Below are positions 2,824-11,162 of a DNA stretch of 56,379 bases, piece by piece (positions within the stretch are counted from its first letter, which is position 1; each line of letters starts with the position of its first letter). The notes below the pieces were generated by a model. That model searched no databases. It saw only the letters and a list, made by a program, of their open reading frames with translations, and was not told the origin of the DNA. This DNA is from an uncultured Bacteroidales bacterium. GTDB lineage: Bacteria; Bacteroidota; Bacteroidia; Bacteroidales; UBA932. The DNA lies in NCBI GenBank assembly GCA_946538425.1, contig CAMNGM010000002.1, positions 1-56,379 on the forward strand, written 5' to 3'. The position numbers were made by a program, and so were the translations under genes.

Positions 2824-3756
2824 ATGACACAAGGGGAAGCGACCGTCGTCAAAAATGCCGGCAGCCACTACGAACTTTCCGCCCTCCCTCAGTGGCGGGT
2901 CTTTCCCGCCGTGCTCCGCGGCCGCATCCGCCTGAAGGCCAGCCAGATCACCAATCCGGTGGCCGTCGGAGACCGGGTCCGGTACGAATGGGCCGACGGC
3001 GAGGAGACGGCCGTCATCACGGAAGTGCTCCCGCGGGAGAACTATGTGATCCGGCGGTCCACGAACCTGTCCCGCCAGGCGCACATCATCGCCGCCAACG
3101 TGGATATGGCCTACCTGGTCGTCTCCCTGTTCTTTCCCGAGGTGAAACTTCCCTTCCTGGACCGCATCCTCGTCACCTGCGGCGTGTACGGCATCCCGGC
3201 CACCGTGGTCCTGTCGAAGGTGGACCTGTACCGGGAGCTCGCCCCGGAGCAGGTCGACGCGTTCCACAGCATCTACGAGGGGGCGGGCTACCGCGTCATC
3301 GACACGTCCGTGCTGACGGGCGAAGGCATCGGCGAACTCCGGGATTCCTGCCGGGGAAAGATCAACCTTTTCTCCGGGGAATCGGGCGTGGGCAAATCCT
3401 CCCTCATCAAGGCGCTGGACCCGGCCCTGGACCCCAAGATCGGGCAGATTTCCACGGCCCACCTGCAGGGGAAGCACACCACTTCCCTGTACGAGATGTA
3501 TCCCTTGTCGACAGGGGGCTATGTCATTGATTCTCCGGGCCTTCGCGGATTCGGGCTGGTAGATCTCGAAAAGGAGGAGATCGGAAAGTATTTCCCCGAA
3601 ATGCTCCGCGCCTCCGAGGGGTGCCGGTTCACCCCCTGCACGCACACCCACGAACCCGGCTGCGCCGTGAAGGCGGCCGTGGACGAGGGCGTCATCTCCC
3701 CCGAACGCTACGCTTCCTACCTGGGAATGCTGGAGGAAGACAAGAAGTTCCGATGA
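2824..3756 (+). CDS. rsgA: Ribosome small subunit-dependent GTPase A
   Basis: RsgA is a circularly permuted GTPase that checks late 30S subunit maturation. The permuted order is visible: an OB-fold N-terminus (about 1-75), the G4 motif VVLSKVDL near residue 130, then the G1 P-loop GESGVGKSSLIKAL near 185, and G3 DSPGLRGFGL near 238. A C-terminal zinc finger CRFTPCTHTHEPGC follows near 270. The length of 310 aa is normal. The ATG at 2824 follows a TAnnTTTG box. The stop codon overlaps the start of the MATE gene in ATGA, so the two are probably translationally coupled. Confidence 0.96.
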   Translation: MTQGEATVVKNAGSHYELSALPQWRVFPAVLRGRIRLKASQITNPVAVGDRVRYEWADGEETAVITEVLPRENYVIRRSTNLSRQAHIIAANVDMAYLVVSLFFPEVKLPFLDRILVTCGVYGIPATVVLSKVDLYRELAPEQVDAFHSIYEGAGYRVIDTSVLTGEGIGELRDSCRGKINLFSGESGVGKSSLIKALDPALDPKIGQISTAHLQGKHTTSLYEMYPLSTGGYVIDSPGLRGFGLVDLEKEEIGKYFPEMLRASEGCRFTPCTHTHEPGCAVKAAVDEGVISPERYASYLGMLEEDKKFR

Positions 3757-5222
3757 ACCTCCACCGGGACATCCTCCGCCTCGCCGTTCCGAGCATCCTC
3801 GCGAACATCACCGTGCCCCTGGTGGGGATGGTCGACATCGCCGTGGCCGGGCACCTGGGCGCCTCGGGCGGCCTGAGCGCCGCCGCCCTCATCGGCGGCA
3901 TCTCCATCGGCACGATGCTCTTCGACATGCTGTACTGGAACTTCGGGTTTCTCCGCGGCGGGACCGGCGGTTTGACGGCGCAGGCGTATGGAAGGATGAC
4001 CGCCCATCCCGAAGGAAGCGACGAGAATGCGCTGGCCAAACGCGACATCGCGCTGACGCTGAAAAGGGCGCTCGGCATCGCGCTGGGGTCCGGACTGCTG
4101 CTGGTGGCCCTGCAATGGGTGGTGGTCCAGGTGGCGTTCCTCCTAGTGGAGTGTTCGCCCGAGGTGCAAAAGCTTGCTACCCAATACTTTTACATCCGGA
4201 TCTGGGCGGCCCCGGCCACCCTGTCGCTGTTCGCCTTCAAGGGCTGGTTCATCGGTATGCAGGACACCGTCCGGCCGATGACCTGCGACCTGATCGTCAA
4301 TTTCACGAACATCCTCCTGTCCGTAGGCCTCGCCTTCGGGTACGCCGGCCTCCCGGCGCTCGGCTTCGCCGGCGTCGCCTGGGGCACCCTCATCGCCCAG
4401 TGGACGGGCTTCCTGTACGCTTCGCTGGCCGTCCGGTTCCGGTACGGAATCTTTTTCCGGAAAACAGATTCCTTCGCTTCGCTCGGAATGACAAAAGGAA
4501 ATACCGGAACGACAGACTGTCATCCCGAGGAGGTCGAAGACCGACGAAGGGATCTCGACAGAAAAGGCTGGCGGGCGTTCTTCGTGCTAAACCGGGACCT
4601 GTTCTTCCGGTCGCTCTGTATGATCGCGGTGTACATCGGCTTCACGATGATATCGGCCCGATACGGGGATATGATGCTCGCGGTGGGGGCGATCCTGATG
4701 AAACTGCTGATGATCTTCAGCTACTTCACCGACGGGTTCGCCTACGCCGGCGAGGCGCTGACGGGCCGCTTCATCGGGGAAAGGTCCCCGGACGGGGTCC
4801 GGTCCACCATCCGGCAGACCTTCCTGTGGAGCCTGGGCGTGACGGGCCTGTTCTTCCTGGTGTACGGGGTGGGCGGCGTGCCGCTGCTGCGCCTGATGAC
4901 GTCCGACCCCGGCGTCGTGGAAGCGGGGCGCGAATTCATCCCCTGGCTGCTGCTGATGCCGGTCATCGGCTGCCCCGCCTTCACCTGGGACGGCATCTTC
5001 ATGGGGGCGACCGCCTCGAAGGATCTGCGGAACTCCACGGTGTGGTGCGTCGTGGGCTTTTTCGGCGTGTGGTTCGTCGGCATCGGCCTCCTCAAAGCCG
5101 TCCGGGGAACCGTTCCGGAGACCCTCGCCATCCACCTGCTGATGGCCGCCTATTTCACCCATCTGGCCGTCCGGGCCGCCTATCTGACCCTCCGTTGGCG
5201 GAAGGCCATCCCCTACGCTTGA
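3753..5222 (+). CDS. MATE-family (DinF/NorM-like) multidrug or metabolite exporter with internal repeat insertion
   Basis: This is a 489-residue, roughly 12-helix inner-membrane antiporter. The start is placed at 3753 (MNLHRDILRLAVPSILANIT), overlapping the rsgA stop by ATGA; the longer track start at 3621 lies inside rsgA and is rejected. The GGLTAQAYGR stretch after helix 2 and the DGFAYAGEALTGRFIG segment in the second half are typical of Bacteroidetes MATE proteins. Residues about 238-268 are encoded by a pair of short interspersed repeats and read RKTDSFASLGMTKGN and onwards. These residues fall in the loop between helices 6 and 7, where hydrophilic extra sequence is tolerable. The frame stays open throughout, so the transporter may still work. 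Its substrate is unknown. Confidence 0.9.
   Translation: MNLHRDILRLAVPSILANITVPLVGMVDIAVAGHLGASGGLSAAALIGGISIGTMLFDMLYWNFGFLRGGTGGLTAQAYGRMTAHPEGSDENALAKRDIALTLKRALGIALGSGLLLVALQWVVVQVAFLLVECSPEVQKLATQYFYIRIWAAPATLSLFAFKGWFIGMQDTVRPMTCDLIVNFTNILLSVGLAFGYAGLPALGFAGVAWGTLIAQWTGFLYASLAVRFRYGIFFRKTDSFASLGMTKGNTGTTDCHPEEVEDRRRDLDRKGWRAFFVLNRDLFFRSLCMIAVYIGFTMISARYGDMMLAVGAILMKLLMIFSYFTDGFAYAGEALTGRFIGERSPDGVRSTIRQTFLWSLGVTGLFFLVYGVGGVPLLRLMTSDPGVVEAGREFIPWLLLMPVIGCPAFTWDGIFMGATASKDLRNSTVWCVVGFFGVWFVGIGLLKAVRGTVPETLAIHLLMAAYFTHLAVRAAYLTLRWRKAIPYA
4466..4556. repeat. Paired short interspersed repeat inside the MATE gene
   Basis: The plus strand contains GATTCCTTCGCTTCGCTCGG followed by AATGACA, a ~20-base spacer, then TGTCATCCCGAGG and a diverged tail ending CGAAGGGATCTC. 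The second half is an imperfect inverted copy of the first. The same half-unit occurs at 7896-7944, 12045-12117, 31693-31727 and 54132-54159. Here the whole element is translated in-frame as part of the exporter. Confidence 0.85.
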
Positions 5223-5270: not shown

Positions 5271-7889
5271 ATGATGACTGCAAAAGAGATTCGACAGAGG
5301 TACCTGGAATTCTTCGCTTCCAAGGGACACACCATCGTTCCGAGCGCCCCCATGGTGATCAAGAACGACCCCACCCTGATGTTCACGAACGCGGGAATGA
5401 ACCAGTTCAAGGATATTTTCCTGGGCAACACCCAACCCAAGTTCCCCCGGGCCACGGACAGCCAGAAGTGCCTCCGCGTGAGCGGAAAGCACAATGACCT
5501 GGAGGCGGTGGGCCACGACGGCCGCCACCACACGATGTTCGAGATGCTCGGAAACTGGAGCTTCGGCGACTATTTCAAGGCCGAGGCCATCGACTGGGCC
5601 TGGGAGCTCCTCACCGAGGTGTACAAGATCGACAAGACCAAGCTCTATGCGACCGTGTTCGAAGGCGCGGCCGACGACGGCACCGCCCTCGACACCGAGG
5701 CGCAGGAGGCCTGGCTGAAGCATATGCCGGCGGACCACGTCCTGCTGGGCAACAAGCACGACAATTTCTGGGAGATGGGCGACACGGGCCCCTGCGGCCC
5801 CTGCTCGGAGATCCACATCGACCTCCGCTCCGACGAGGAGATCGCGAAGGTCCCCGGCCGTGACCTCGTGAACACCGACAACGACGAGGTGATCGAGATC
5901 TGGAACCTCGTGTTCATGCAGTACAACCGCAAGGCCGACGGCCACCTGGAGCCGCTGCCCGCCAAGAACATCGACACCGGTATGGGCTTCGAGCGCCTGT
6001 GCATGGTCCTGCAGGGCAAGACGTCCAACTACGAGACGGATGTGTTCAGCGGCCTCATCGGCTGCCTGGAGAAGCTCTCCGGACACAAGTACCACGAGAA
6101 CGAAAAGGTGGAAGTGGCCATGCGCGTGTGCGCCGACCACATCCGCGCCATCGCCTTCTCCATCGCCGACGGCCAGCTGCCGTCCAACGTGAAGGCCGGC
6201 TATGTGATCCGCCGCATCCTTCGCCGCGCCGTCCGCTACGGCTACACCTTCCTGGGCTTCAACGAGCCGTTCCTCACCCGCCTGGTTCCCCAGCTGGTGG
6301 AGGACATGGGCGAGGCCTATCCGGAGCTCAAGGCCCAGCAGAAGCTCATCGAGAGCGTCATCCGCGAAGAGGAGAACGCCTTCCTGCGCACGCTGGACCG
6401 CGGAATCCGCCTCCTGGAAGACACGATGGCAAAGAGCGCCGCGACGAAGGTCATCGCCGGCACGGACGCCTTCGTCCTGTACGACACCTACGGCTTCCCG
6501 ATCGACCTGACCGAGCTCATCGCCACCGAGAAGGGCTACACCGTGGACCTGGACGGCTTCCAGGTGGAGCTCGGAAAGCAGAAGGAGCGCGCCCGCAACG
6601 CCACCGCCAACGAGTTCGGCGACTGGGTGGAGTTCGCCGCCGGAGACGAGGTGGAATTCCTGGGCTACGACCTGCTGGACTATGAAGGCGCCACGCTCCT
6701 GAAGCAGCGCACCGTCAAGCAGAAGAACAAGGAGCTGTACCAGCTCGTCTTCGACAAGACCCCGTTCTACGCCGAGATGGGCGGCCAGGTGGGCGACACC
6801 GGCTGCATCGTCTCCGCCTCCGGCGAGAAGATCGCCATCCTGAACACCGTCAAGGAGAACAACCTCACCATCCACCTCGCCGAGCGCCTTCCCGCCGACG
6901 GCACCGAGTCCTTCGACCTCCACGTCGACGGCGAGCGCCGGAAGAAGATCCAGGCCAACCACTCCGCGACGCACCTCCTCCACGAGGCCCTGCGCGAGAT
7001 CCTGGGCACCCACGTGGAGCAGAAGGGTTCCTTCGTGGGCCCGGACTACTTCCGCTTCGACTTCTCCCACTTCGCCAAGATGACCGACGAGGAGATCCTC
7101 GCCGTCGAGAAGAAGGTCAACGCCCTCATCCGCGCCAACGATCCCCTCTGGGAGAAGCGTGACGCGACGATGGACGAGGCCCGCGCGATGGGCGCGATGG
7201 CCCTGTTCGGCGAAAAGTACGGCGACGTGGTCCGCGTGGTCCGCTTCGGCGATTCCGTGGAACTCTGCGGCGGTACGCACACCTCCGCGACCGGCAACAT
7301 CGGCCTCCTGAAGATCGTCTCCGAGAGCGCCATCGCCGCCGGTGTCCGCCGGATCGAGGCCCTCACGGGCGAAGCGGCCGAGAATTATGTCCACGCGATG
7401 GAGGAAGCCCTCCGCGGGGCGAAGTCCTTCTTCAACAACACGCCCGACCTCGCCGGCGCCATCCGCAAGCTGGTCGAGGAGAATGCCGACGCGCGCAAGC
7501 AGCTGGAGGCGGCCGCGGCCGAAAAGGCCGCGCAGCTGGCCGAGCGCCTGTACGCCGGCGCCGAGGTCGTGAACGGCATCCGCGTCGCCAAGTTCGAGAT
7601 GTCCGTGGATCCGGGCTTCGCCCGCAACCTGGCGCTCCTCCTGCAGAAAAAGGCCGAGAACCTCGTGCTCGTGGGCGCCTACGAGTTCGGCGGCAAGCCG
7701 AACCTCCTGGCGATGTACTCGGGCGACCTCGTCGCGAAGGGCAAGAACGCCGGCAAGGACATCCGCGAAGCCGCGAAGCTCATCCAGGGCGGCGGCGGCG
7801 GACAGCCCGGCCTCGCCACGGCCGGCGGCCGCGACACCGCGAACCTCCCTGCCGCCCTCGAGAAACTGATTGAATTAGCGACGGCATAA
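5271..7889 (+). CDS. alaS: Alanyl-tRNA synthetase
   Basis: AlaS charges tRNA-Ala with alanine and edits mischarged Ser/Gly. At 872 aa it has the usual length. The class II catalytic core is visible near residues 58-100 ([19 protein letters not shown], then [18 protein letters not shown]). The editing domain zinc motif [11 protein letters not shown] lies near 563 and [13 protein letters not shown] near 665. The C-terminal C-Ala part ends with [14 protein letters not shown]. The start is chosen at the ATGATG pair at 5271/5274 just after the -7 box; the track start at 5247 lies within the promoter. The next gene follows after a 55-base stretch that is almost entirely interspersed repeat. Confidence 0.97.
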
Positions 7890-7895
7890 CCCTCC

Positions 7896-7944
7896 TGTCA
7901 TTCCGAGCGCCCTATTGTCATTCCGAGCGTAGTCGAGGAATCTC
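7896..7944 (+). repeat. Short interspersed repeat forming the lptG leader
   Basis: Two direct partial copies (TGTCATTCCGAGCG, then TGTCATTCCGAGCGTAGTCG with AGGAATCTC) fill the alaS-lptG gap. The last base of AGGAATCTC is directly followed by the lptG ATG, so the repeat itself forms the ribosome landing region. Confidence 0.85.
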
Positions 7945-10389
7945 ATGAAAAAGCTGGACCTGTTCATACTGAAGTCGTTCATAGGACCGTTCTTCGCGAT
8001 CCTCGCGATCACCATCTTCATCCTGGTGATGCAGTTCCTGTGGCTGTACATCGATGAACTGGTCGGCAAAGGCCTGGAGCTCAAGGTCATCCTGGAGTTC
8101 CTCCTGTGGGGGAGCTGCCAGGTGCTGCCGCTGGCCCTGCCGCTGGCAACCCTCCTGGCGTCGATGATGACCTTCGGCGACATGGGCGAGCACTACGAGC
8201 TCACCGCGATGAACTCCGCCGGCATCTCCCTCGCCCGCATCCTGCTGCCCGCGACGGTCGCCAGCGCCGTCATCGCCGTCGCCGCGTTCTTCATCGGCGA
8301 CCGGCTGGTCCCCTACTCCATCAACCACATCTATACGATGCGCGAGGACATCGGGCGCACCAAGTCCGAGATCAAGATCCCCGTCGGGACCTTCTACGAC
8401 GGCATCGAGGGGTACATCCTCCGCATCGACGACCGCGACAAGGAGACCGGGATGATGTACGGGGTGATGGTCTACGACCACACGACCGACAAGGGCAACC
8501 TCCGCCTCACCGTCGCCGACAGCGGCCTGATGAAGATGTCCAAGGCCAAGGACTACCTGACCTTCCAGCTGTACGACGGCACCAACTACCAGGAGACCAA
8601 CACCCGCAAGTACCGGGACACCACCCTCGCCCTGCAGCGGATCCATTTCGCCCGCCAGGAGATGGTGATTCCGCTGGAGAACTACTCGTTCCATCATTCC
8701 GACTCCGCCCGCTACGGCGACCAGGTCCGGTCGATGTCCAACGAGCAGCTCCGCCACGGCCGGGATTCCCTGGCCGAGAAGTCGGACGCGGGCGCGGAGA
8801 AGTTCCTGGAGGAGATCCGGCACTCGTACGCCCTCCAGTGGCAGTCGCAACTGGATTCCGGCTGGAAGGATCCCGCCAAGAAGCCGTTCGACCTCAGCCG
8901 CGAACCGGCCTCCTGGGAGGATCCGGGACGGCGGAAGATCGCCTACGAGTCGGCCGTGTCCAACGTGAACCAGCTCCAGTCCACCATCCAGACCCAGGGG
9001 ATGGAGGCCTACGAATACAGCCGCCTCCTCCGCCTGAGCGAGGTGGAGATCTGGAAGAAATACGCCCAGGCCCTCGCCTGCTTCATCCTTTTCTTCATCG
9101 GCGCCCCGATCGGCTCCCTCATCCGCAAGGGCGGACTGGGCACCCCGGCCGTCGTGTCCATCCTGTTCTTCGTCCTGTACTGGGTCGTGGACATCTCGGG
9201 CACGAAACTGGCCCGCGACGGCGCCACGACGCCTTTCATCGGCGATTTCATATCGGCCTTCGTCCTGATTCCCATCGGCGTGTTCCTCACCTGGATGGCC
9301 ATCCGGGAGAAGTCCCTCAACCTGGACGCCTTCAAGACCTGGCGCCGCAAATTCTTCAGCAAGCTTATGTCCCTGTTCAAGAAGACCCGCATCGTCTATA
9401 TGGGCACGCCCGAGTTCGCCGTGGCCCCGCTCGACGCCCTCACCAAGGGGCGCGGCTACAAAGTGGTCGGCGTCGTGACCGTGCCCGACAAGCCCAGCGG
9501 CCGCGGGCTCAAGATGAACGAGAGCGCCGTGAAGAAATATGCCGTGGCGAACGGCCTCCCCCTCCTGCAGCCCGAAAAGCTCAAGGGCCCGGCCTTCCTC
9601 GAGGCCCTCGCGGCCTGGAAGGCGGACCTGTTCGTGGTCGTCGGCTTCCGGATGCTGCCGGAGGTGGTCTGGAAAATGCCCAAGATGGGCACCTTCAACC
9701 TCCACGCCGCCCTCCTGCCGCAGTACCGCGGCGCTGCCCCGATCAACTGGGCCGTCATCAACGGGGAGAACCTCACGGGCGTGACGACCTTCATGATCGA
9801 CCAGAAGATCGACACGGGCGGCATCCTCCTGCGCCAGGAGTGCCGGATCGAGCCCACGGACACCGTCGGCGACGTGCACGACAAGCTGATGGCCCTCGGC
9901 GCGGACCTCGTGGTCGAGACGGTCGAAGGCCTCATCCAGAAGAATGTCGAGACGCGCGTCCAGCGCAGTTTCGTCCAGGGTTCCGAAGTCCTGAAACCAG
10001 CCCCGAAGCTCACCCGCGAGCTCCAGCACATCGACTGGGACGACACCGCGCGCAACATCTACAACCTCGTCCGCGGCCTGTCCCCGTTCCCGGGGGCCTT
10101 CACCGAACTGGTCAAGGACGGCCAGGCCACGCAGCTGAAGGTCTTCTTCGGCGAAATCCGCACCGACCTCCACGCCGCGCCGGGCACCGTCCTCTCCGAC
10201 GGCAAGACCTACCTCGCCGTCGCCACGCAGGACGGCGCGCTCGCCCTCACCGACCTCCAGCTCGCCGGCAAGAAGCGGATGGATGTCAAGGCCTTCCTCC
10301 TGGGCTTCCGCGAACCGGAAACCTACACCACGTCCAAGGGTACCTCGAAGGCTGAAATCCTGAAAACCAAACCCACAGACGAGGATTAG
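7945..10389 (+). CDS. LptG/LptF-type LPS export permease continuous with methionyl-tRNA formyltransferase
   Basis: One 814-codon open frame carries two normally separate proteins. Residues 1 to about 472 are a YjgP/YjgQ (LptF/G) permease: an N-terminal helix FFAILAITIFILVMQFLWLY, two further helices to about 125, a periplasmic jelly-roll domain, and three C-terminal helices including FFIGAPIGSLIRKGGLG. This partner of LptB moves LPS to the Lpt bridge. From about 475 a complete Fmt follows: RIVYMGTPEFAVAPL, PDKPSGRGLK, the catalytic NLHAALLPQYRGAAPI and DQKIDTGGIL, then the C-terminal OB domain. No stop codon separates them. An in-frame ATG at 9367 sits exactly where a stand-alone Fmt would begin. 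Either a true fusion exists or the lptG stop was lost and Fmt is also made from the internal start. A sequencing error that removed a stop is possible but would have to keep the frame. Confidence 0.88.
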   Translation: MKKLDLFILKSFIGPFFAILAITIFILVMQFLWLYIDELVGKGLELKVILEFLLWGSCQVLPLALPLATLLASMMTFGDMGEHYELTAMNSAGISLARILLPATVASAVIAVAAFFIGDRLVPYSINHIYTMREDIGRTKSEIKIPVGTFYDGIEGYILRIDDRDKETGMMYGVMVYDHTTDKGNLRLTVADSGLMKMSKAKDYLTFQLYDGTNYQETNTRKYRDTTLALQRIHFARQEMVIPLENYSFHHSDSARYGDQVRSMSNEQLRHGRDSLAEKSDAGAEKFLEEIRHSYALQWQSQLDSGWKDPAKKPFDLSREPASWEDPGRRKIAYESAVSNVNQLQSTIQTQGMEAYEYSRLLRLSEVEIWKKYAQALACFILFFIGAPIGSLIRKGGLGTPAVVSILFFVLYWVVDISGTKLARDGATTPFIGDFISAFVLIPIGVFLTWMAIREKSLNLDAFKTWRRKFFSKLMSLFKKTRIVYMGTPEFAVAPLDALTKGRGYKVVGVVTVPDKPSGRGLKMNESAVKKYAVANGLPLLQPEKLKGPAFLEALAAWKADLFVVVGFRMLPEVVWKMPKMGTFNLHAALLPQYRGAAPINWAVINGENLTGVTTFMIDQKIDTGGILLRQECRIEPTDTVGDVHDKLMALGADLVVETVEGLIQKNVETRVQRSFVQGSEVLKPAPKLTRELQHIDWDDTARNIYNLVRGLSPFPGAFTELVKDGQATQLKVFFGEIRTDLHAAPGTVLSDGKTYLAVATQDGALALTDLQLAGKKRMDVKAFLLGFREPETYTTSKGTSKAEILKTKPTDED
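9367..10389 (+). other. fmt: Fmt portion with possible internal start (methionyl-tRNA formyltransferase)
   Basis: Translation from the in-frame ATG at 9367 gives MSLFKKTRIVYMGTPEFAV and 340 residues, the ordinary length and N-terminus of Fmt. Fmt formylates Met-tRNAi using 10-formyl-THF. The Asn-His pair in TFNLHAALLP and the Asp in DQKIDTGG match the catalytic triad known in E. coli Fmt. The usual SLLPxxRGAAP is AALLPQYRGAAP here, a mild variation. This entry marks a possible independent product of the fused frame. Confidence 0.7.
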
Positions 10390-10499
10390 GTGGCAGGCCC
10401 TCTCTTTTCAAACCCCCGCTTTGCGGTCCCTCCCATAAATGGGCCCCTCCCTCTTATAAGCCGAGGGTGGCATAGGTTTGAAAAGAGAGGCCCTGCCAC
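10390..10499. repeat. Long inverted repeat between fmt and thiN
   Basis: The arms GTGGCAGGCCCTCTCTTTTC+AAAC (10390-10413) and the reverse complement at 10476-10499 match at 23 of 24 positions around a 62-base GC-rich centre. The left arm starts directly after the fmt TAG and the right arm ends 18 bases before the thiN ATG. It could act as a terminator-like hairpin, but the size and defined ends also fit a small non-autonomous mobile element. No T-tract follows. Confidence 0.8.
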
Positions 10500-10517: not shown

Positions 10518-11162
10518 ATGAAAAACGTTGTCATCCTGTGCAATGGGGCGTTTCCCCGGAAAGCGTATCCGCTGTATCTGCTGGACAGCGCCGAGGTGGT
10601 CGTGTGCTGCGACGGGGCGGCGGTGAAGTATCTGCGCCGGTACGGGGGGAAAAGATTGCCGGAGGCGGTGATCGGGGACATGGACTCGCTGCCCGGGCGG
10701 TGGCGGGAGAAACTGGCGCCGATTGTCGTGCATGTGGAGGAGCAGGACGACAATGATATGACGAAGGCGATGCGGTACGTGCTGGAACACCATCCGGACG
10801 TGACGGACATCCACATCCTGGGCGCCACGGGACTCCGGGAGGACCACACCGTGGGCAATCTGGGGCTACTGATGGAATACACCCGGTTGTTCGACCTGGG
10901 CGGCATCCGCGTGGAAATGGTGTCGGATTTCTCCACGGCCTTTGCCATCACGGACAGCTGCGAGCTGCATGTGGGCAAGGGACGGCGCGTATCCTTGTTC
11001 TCCCCCGACAACGCCTTGACCATCAAGTCCGAAGGACTCCATTGGCCCACGGACGGCGTCGTTTTCGACGCCTGGTGGCCGGCCACGCTGAACCGGGCCG
11101 ACGCCGACATCATAAAACTCACTTTTTCACATCCTTCCCGCGCGCTGATCATCCTGGATTGA
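10518..11162 (+). CDS. thiN: Thiamine pyrophosphokinase
   Basis: This cytoplasmic enzyme converts thiamine plus ATP to thiamine diphosphate. The 214-residue protein shows the family pattern: VVILCNGAFP at the start, VVCCDGAA near 30, VIGDMDSLP near 55, DDNDMTKAM near 78, and LGATGLREDHTVGN near 100. The C-terminal beta domain ends with LTFSHPSRALIIL. The start is the ATG at 10518, 18 bases after the long inverted repeat. The gene is followed by an independent promoter for the next gene. Confidence 0.9.
   Translation: MKNVVILCNGAFPRKAYPLYLLDSAEVVVCCDGAAVKYLRRYGGKRLPEAVIGDMDSLPGRWREKLAPIVVHVEEQDDNDMTKAMRYVLEHHPDVTDIHILGATGLREDHTVGNLGLLMEYTRLFDLGGIRVEMVSDFSTAFAITDSCELHVGKGRRVSLFSPDNALTIKSEGLHWPTDGVVFDAWWPATLNRADADIIKLTFSHPSRALIILD

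Follow-up and report, generated by a model that had tools for sequence, protein, structure and literature searches.

Methionyl-tRNA formyltransferase (Fmt), whose catalytic Asn, His and Asp are known from the E. coli enzyme, is usually regarded as a free cytosolic enzyme. LptF is one of the two permease subunits of the lipopolysaccharide (LPS) extractor LptB2FG, and in the known LptF structures both ends of the chain are cytoplasmic. Here we describe a gene that joins the two, located in a window of 56,379 nucleotides (the whole stretch of DNA analysed) from an uncultured Bacteroidales bacterium. Like ArnA, the formyltransferase-decarboxylase fusion of LPS modification, its product carries an Fmt-like domain in an LPS-connected fusion. 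However, ArnA is soluble and acts on a UDP-sugar, whereas the domain present here is that of a true Fmt and its partner is a transporter subunit.

Compared with Fmt (TIGR00460; 1FMT and 2FMT from E. coli), the formyltransferase half likewise has both domains and the catalytic Asn, His and Asp, passes the family cut-off and is the sole copy, but its N-terminus is joined to a membrane permease and its own start codon is often absent. The permease half resembles LptF and LptG of LptB2FG (PF03739) in having a large periplasmic domain flanked by six hydrophobic segments, and a separate LptG-like partner is situated beside tgt in a same-genus genome. It differs from them in being the longer Bacteroidota form with an additional C-terminal enzyme domain, and in scoring below the TIGR04407 cut-off. 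Tandem lptF-fmt pairs of relatives (genera g27, g210, g215, g216, g223, g226 and g229) have the same genes in the same order, touching or overlapping, and a basic LptF tail, but there a stop codon or a change of frame separates the two proteins. No paper on an LptF-Fmt fusion was found in literature searches whose reach excluded most subscription journals and all preprints, in agreement with the statement of the first-pass annotation that no functional link between the permease and Fmt has been described. Protein databases probably hold such fused sequences without comment.

Organization of the fused gene

The fused gene runs uninterrupted from an ATG start to a TAG, with no internal stop (Table 1). 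Pfam analysis of the product places LptF_LptG at residues 8 to 450 (5e-66), followed by Formyl_trans_N (4e-34) and Formyl_trans_C (6e-23), so that the single frame holding both a permease and Fmt, as first annotated, is confirmed by the reading of the frame as well as by the domain search. The proposed search for the same joined frame in related genomes found it, identical in arrangement, in nearly every genome of the genus that has the gene intact, and direct reading showed it intact in 123 distinct fused genes (final gene counts are those after removal of 7 duplicate loci). A chance open frame is ruled out by this conservation. The opposite case, in which relatives all have a stop before the Fmt ATG, was examined and did not come true.

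Table 1. Features of the lptF-fmt locus and its neighbours (window coordinates).
Feature	Coordinates	Strand	Remarks
Fused lptF-fmt gene	7945..10389	+	814 aa; coordinates include the stop codon
LptF permease part, residues 1-450	7945..9294	+	Pfam PF03739, hydropathy, AlphaFold helices and strands
Linker, about residues 451-480	9295..9384	+	Basic, partly helical
In-frame ATG, residue 475, candidate internal Fmt start	9367..9369	+	Not conserved
Fmt catalytic domain Formyl_trans_N, residues 482-659	9388..9921	+	Pfam; N585, H587 and D623 invariant
Fmt C-terminal domain Formyl_trans_C, residues 688-788	10006..10308	+	Pfam
alaS, alanyl-tRNA synthetase	5274..7889	+	Upstream neighbour, context only; Pfam tRNA-synt_2c, 3e-199
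Thiamin pyrophosphokinase gene	10518..11162	+	Downstream neighbour, context only; Pfam TPK_catalytic, 9e-21

Several repeats are present around the gene. Two copies of a dispersed-repeat core are located immediately 5' of its ATG (7897-7942), so that the repeat forms the 5' leader of the gene. Right after its stop codon, in the gap ahead of the thiamin pyrophosphokinase gene, is a 25-nt inverted repeat (10390-10499) with 96% complementary arms and a 60-nt spacer; besides copies of the same locus, its arm is present in just one of the loci fetched (L038). The dispersed repeat whose core precedes the gene is of the GTCATTCCGAGC kind and is enriched in the window (9 matches against 1.4 expected); another copy lies in frame at 4475-4560 within a MATE-family transporter gene (3621-5222) and contributes the residues FASLGMTKGNTGTTDCHPEEVEDRRRDLD to the transporter.

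The permease half

The permease was initially called LptG. In our analysis it scores as LptF, with 138.7 bits for NCBIfam TIGR04407 (LptF) against 102.3 for TIGR04408 (LptG), both below cut-off. The equivalog cut-off of TIGR04407 (230 bits) is likewise missed by stand-alone Bacteroidales homologues (161.4 and 134.8), and the PF03739 (LptF/LptG) cut-off is passed with 223.5 against 27.9 bits. As it scores below the equivalog cut-off, we file the protein as an LptF-type permease of PF03739 and not as a member of the equivalog model. Same-genus genomes have as a rule two LptF/LptG permeases, the fused one of about 820 aa and a separate one of about 365 aa. In one of them (L195) the second permease adjoins tgt and scores higher as LptG (186.3) than as LptF (147.3), and the fused permease is therefore best called LptF. 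A search of the incomplete genome of the window itself (56% complete) did not reveal the second permease (LptG).

Hydropathy analysis reveals six hydrophobic segments, at about residues 11-33, 52-72, 97-118, 376-390, 401-415 and 435-449, with the large periplasmic domain between the third and the fourth. An AlphaFold model of the protein contains long membrane helices and the strands of a jellyroll, with Fmt folded as a separate unit, and the model's pTM of 0.40 leaves the placement of Fmt relative to LptF unfixed. In Foldseek searches solved Fmt structures rank at the top and LptF/LptG chains (5x5y_F, 6mit_F and 9dok_F) lower. Hydropathy, AlphaFold and Foldseek together bear out a permease of six membrane segments with a periplasmic jellyroll. 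Since both ends of LptF are cytoplasmic, the Fmt half would sit on the cytoplasmic side. Assembly of the fused LptF with LptB and its role in LPS extraction are putative.

The linker and the candidate internal start

The stretch between the two folds (residues 450-482) is 33, 34 or 35 aa long in all 105 distinct aligned same-genus genes, with a mean net charge of +7 and with R468, S472 and F478 conserved. Its dN/dS of 0.20 is similar to that of LptF (0.19) and indicates purifying selection. In the AlphaFold model residues 456-479 have a pLDDT under 50.

The in-frame ATG at 9367, seven codons ahead of the Fmt fold, had been put forward as a canonical Fmt start. The ATG is indeed present, but it is not conserved: of the 105 distinct same-genus genes, 29 have Met 475 and 51 have Met 477, and the other residues found at this position are I, F, L and V, as expected of a helix position. 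The same annotation had offered, as its second option, that the frame makes the fusion as well as a free Fmt of 38 kDa through internal initiation. Initiation would then be at 9367 (or at codon 477 in relatives), most of the Fmt would be soluble and the fused copy would be incidental. Some free Fmt could be made where, as in 86 of the 109 distinct genes in the genus set of the window, that of the window included, an ATG is present within 20 codons before the Fmt fold, and the fmt gene of unfused relatives begins at about the distance of the 9367 ATG. However, among all 123 fused genes the 20 codons before the fold are devoid of ATG in 34 and of ATG, GTG and TTG alike in 18, and initiation at Met 486, which is conserved, would cost the first strand of the Fmt fold. 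The residues upstream of the putative start (451-474) are also constrained as protein (dN/dS 0.21), and the junction shows no dip in synonymous change such as an embedded start signal might cause. With many genes lacking a usable start, a second, free product does not hold as a general feature, and we regard this reading as unlikely. Because the internal start is not conserved, a single fused protein is the better reading, though internal initiation can still take place in the clade of the window, in which many genes have the ATG.

It is also possible that the fusion is processed after synthesis. A single chain might be cut in the basic linker, which has low model confidence and may be exposed, and soluble Fmt would be freed in this way. 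The fixed length and the conserved R468, S472 and F478 suggest a structural role instead, yet they would fit a protease site too, whereas the differing linker lengths and sequences of separately arisen fusions (see below) leave no common site for such a cut. We consider cleavage slightly less probable still than internal initiation.

The formyltransferase half

The Fmt half exceeds the TIGR00460 equivalog cut-off (234.9 against 201.5 bits). It matches E. coli Fmt at 7e-58, and solved Fmt structures overall at 1e-51 to 1e-58. In an alignment with 1FMT the catalytic residues correspond to N585, H587 and D623, which are invariant in 105 of 105 distinct genes, and the C-terminal tRNA-binding domain (PF02911, 6e-23) is present. 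The fused Fmt is predicted to formylate Met-tRNA(fMet). In several longer fusions of the same genus (L056, L062, L072 and others) there is an apparent insertion of about 20-40 aa at about Fmt residues 724-744, which falls in the tRNA-binding domain and splits the alignment there.

We searched 41 same-genus genomes (40 at least 90% complete, and the window's own) for further copies. Exactly one match over the TIGR00460 cut-off was present in 39 of them, always within a frame of 803-996 aa, and none in the other two; a second, free Fmt elsewhere in the genome was not found at this cut-off in any of the 41. Other formyltransferase matches are far under the cut-off and resemble short relatives such as PurN. 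The one match, always in a frame of fused length, means that the fused Fmt is the only Fmt these genomes show.

These data also bear on the idea that the C-terminal half is an LPS-sugar formyltransferase of the ArnA or FdtF type, an identity that would account for its partnership with a permease for LPS. Such enzymes belong to the same fold superfamily, and ArnA and FdtF are among the weaker matches. However, the ArnA model gives only 149.7 bits, far under its cut-off of 777, and ArnA itself matches at about 1e-29, far behind the solved Fmt structures. Moreover, no other Fmt is seen in these genomes, peptide deformylase is present in 21 of 21 genomes tested, and the fused half shares about 50% identity with the stand-alone Fmt of other families. 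An LPS-sugar formyltransferase is thus very improbable.

A full-length fused protein is most likely produced, as suggested by the conserved frame, the sole Fmt and the constrained linker of fixed length. The same three observations support the first option of the first-pass annotation, a real fusion which ties Fmt to the membrane.

Distribution of the fusion

The fusion is found throughout the window's genus, in which one relative (L107) bears the name Candidatus Cryptobacteroides. It also occurs in genera g26, g208 (G430), g209, g211, g219, g220, g221 and g227 (G483) of the same family. The source assembly of the window is a fragmented, 56% complete MAG, but a junction stop lost through an assembly or sequencing artefact is refuted by the recurrence of this frame in 123 distinct genes across many independent assemblies and by the constrained linker. 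Nor does a high G+C content on its own account for the open frame, as fused genes occur at 39% and 42% G+C (g211 and g227) and genes that are not fused reach 62% (g218).

Closely related genera of the same family carry lptF and fmt as two genes. In 26 of 27 sampled unfused pairs fmt begins at most 300 nt after lptF or overlaps it, and most of the pairs overlap. The LptF of unfused relatives already has the same kind of basic C-terminal tail. In six unfused pairs (L151, L152, L154, L155, L164 and L177) the two genes are in the same frame with one or two stops between them, which is near to the fused state. In another family (L199) the order is lptF, two glycosyltransferase-like genes, ribBA and fmt, which suggests that lptF and fmt may have been close together even before the two came to adjoin.

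No fusion was seen outside the family in those genomes of the class that have a detected Fmt (0 of 144); all of them have only stand-alone Fmt frames. A search across the order (393 genomes) gave no out-of-family fusion among the best matches listed (about 155). The open-frame value of the genome search reads through single stops, and such cases were checked by direct reading; the apparent fusions G050, G469, G582, G596 and G608 were rejected in this way, single stops having been read through. Two genomes of family f91 in the same order (G381 and G127; 1.0-1.2 Mb, 99% complete) have no match or a weak match to the LptF-Fmt probe and are candidates for natural loss of Fmt or of LPS export.

Origins of the fusion

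A maximum-likelihood tree was built on both halves with the linker left out. It needs four changes between the fused and the unfused state, three of which are forced by well-supported branches, and the fused genes fall into four groups: g1 with g221; g209, g211, g219 and g220; g208 with g26; and g227 (G483). A single origin, with all fused genes in one clade, is rejected (p-AU 1e-37). Linker length and sequence differ between the separately arisen groups, as separate events predict. On this phylogeny three or four separate origins of the fusion within one family are probable, and some of the changes could be losses instead of gains.

A model for the fused protein

The account that we favour, with a probability of roughly 0.8, is that of one bifunctional LptF-Fmt protein of about 90 kDa which arose three or four times as a near-neutral by-product. 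Its N-terminal half would be LptF and its C-terminal half the only methionyl-tRNA formyltransferase of the cell, tethered on the cytoplasmic face of the inner membrane, at LptB2FG, by about 30 mostly basic residues which would derive from LptF's own C-terminal tail. The tethered Fmt would still formylate Met-tRNA(fMet); as this substrate is diffusible, Fmt need not be soluble.

The ancestral state was a tandem of touching lptF and fmt genes, which were probably translationally coupled, and the joining may have occurred through loss of a stop or a small indel. The most economical scenario is a ratchet in which the stop is lost, the tethered Fmt works equally well, and the separate fmt start then decays. 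In all likelihood the close coupling of the two genes gave rise to the fusion as a by-product that is tolerated or weakly favoured, and LPS export and translation would not be specifically coupled.

Alternatively, fixation on several occasions and long retention could reflect positive selection for coupling LPS export to translation; a benefit is thinkable in view of three or four fixations and the length of time for which the fusion has been kept. Formylation capacity, and with it translation initiation, would then be tied in amount or in place to LPS export. We judge a functional tether of this kind to be about as improbable as the second, free Fmt discussed above. If true, selection for it would explain why the fusion arose separately three or four times and was then kept for so long; for instance, formylation of initiator tRNA might take place close to the membrane, or the state of the envelope and the start of translation might be adjusted together.

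A large group of uncultured gut bacteria appears to be without a free-standing Fmt gene. Genes of this kind are easily labelled with just one of their two functions during annotation. The repeated fusion beside unfused sister lineages offers a natural experiment on how tandem overlapping genes become fusion proteins. Fmt in these bacteria would have to act at the membrane while belonging to a subunit of an LPS transporter, and it is directly testable whether a membrane-bound Fmt is tolerated by translation initiation or is of advantage to it.
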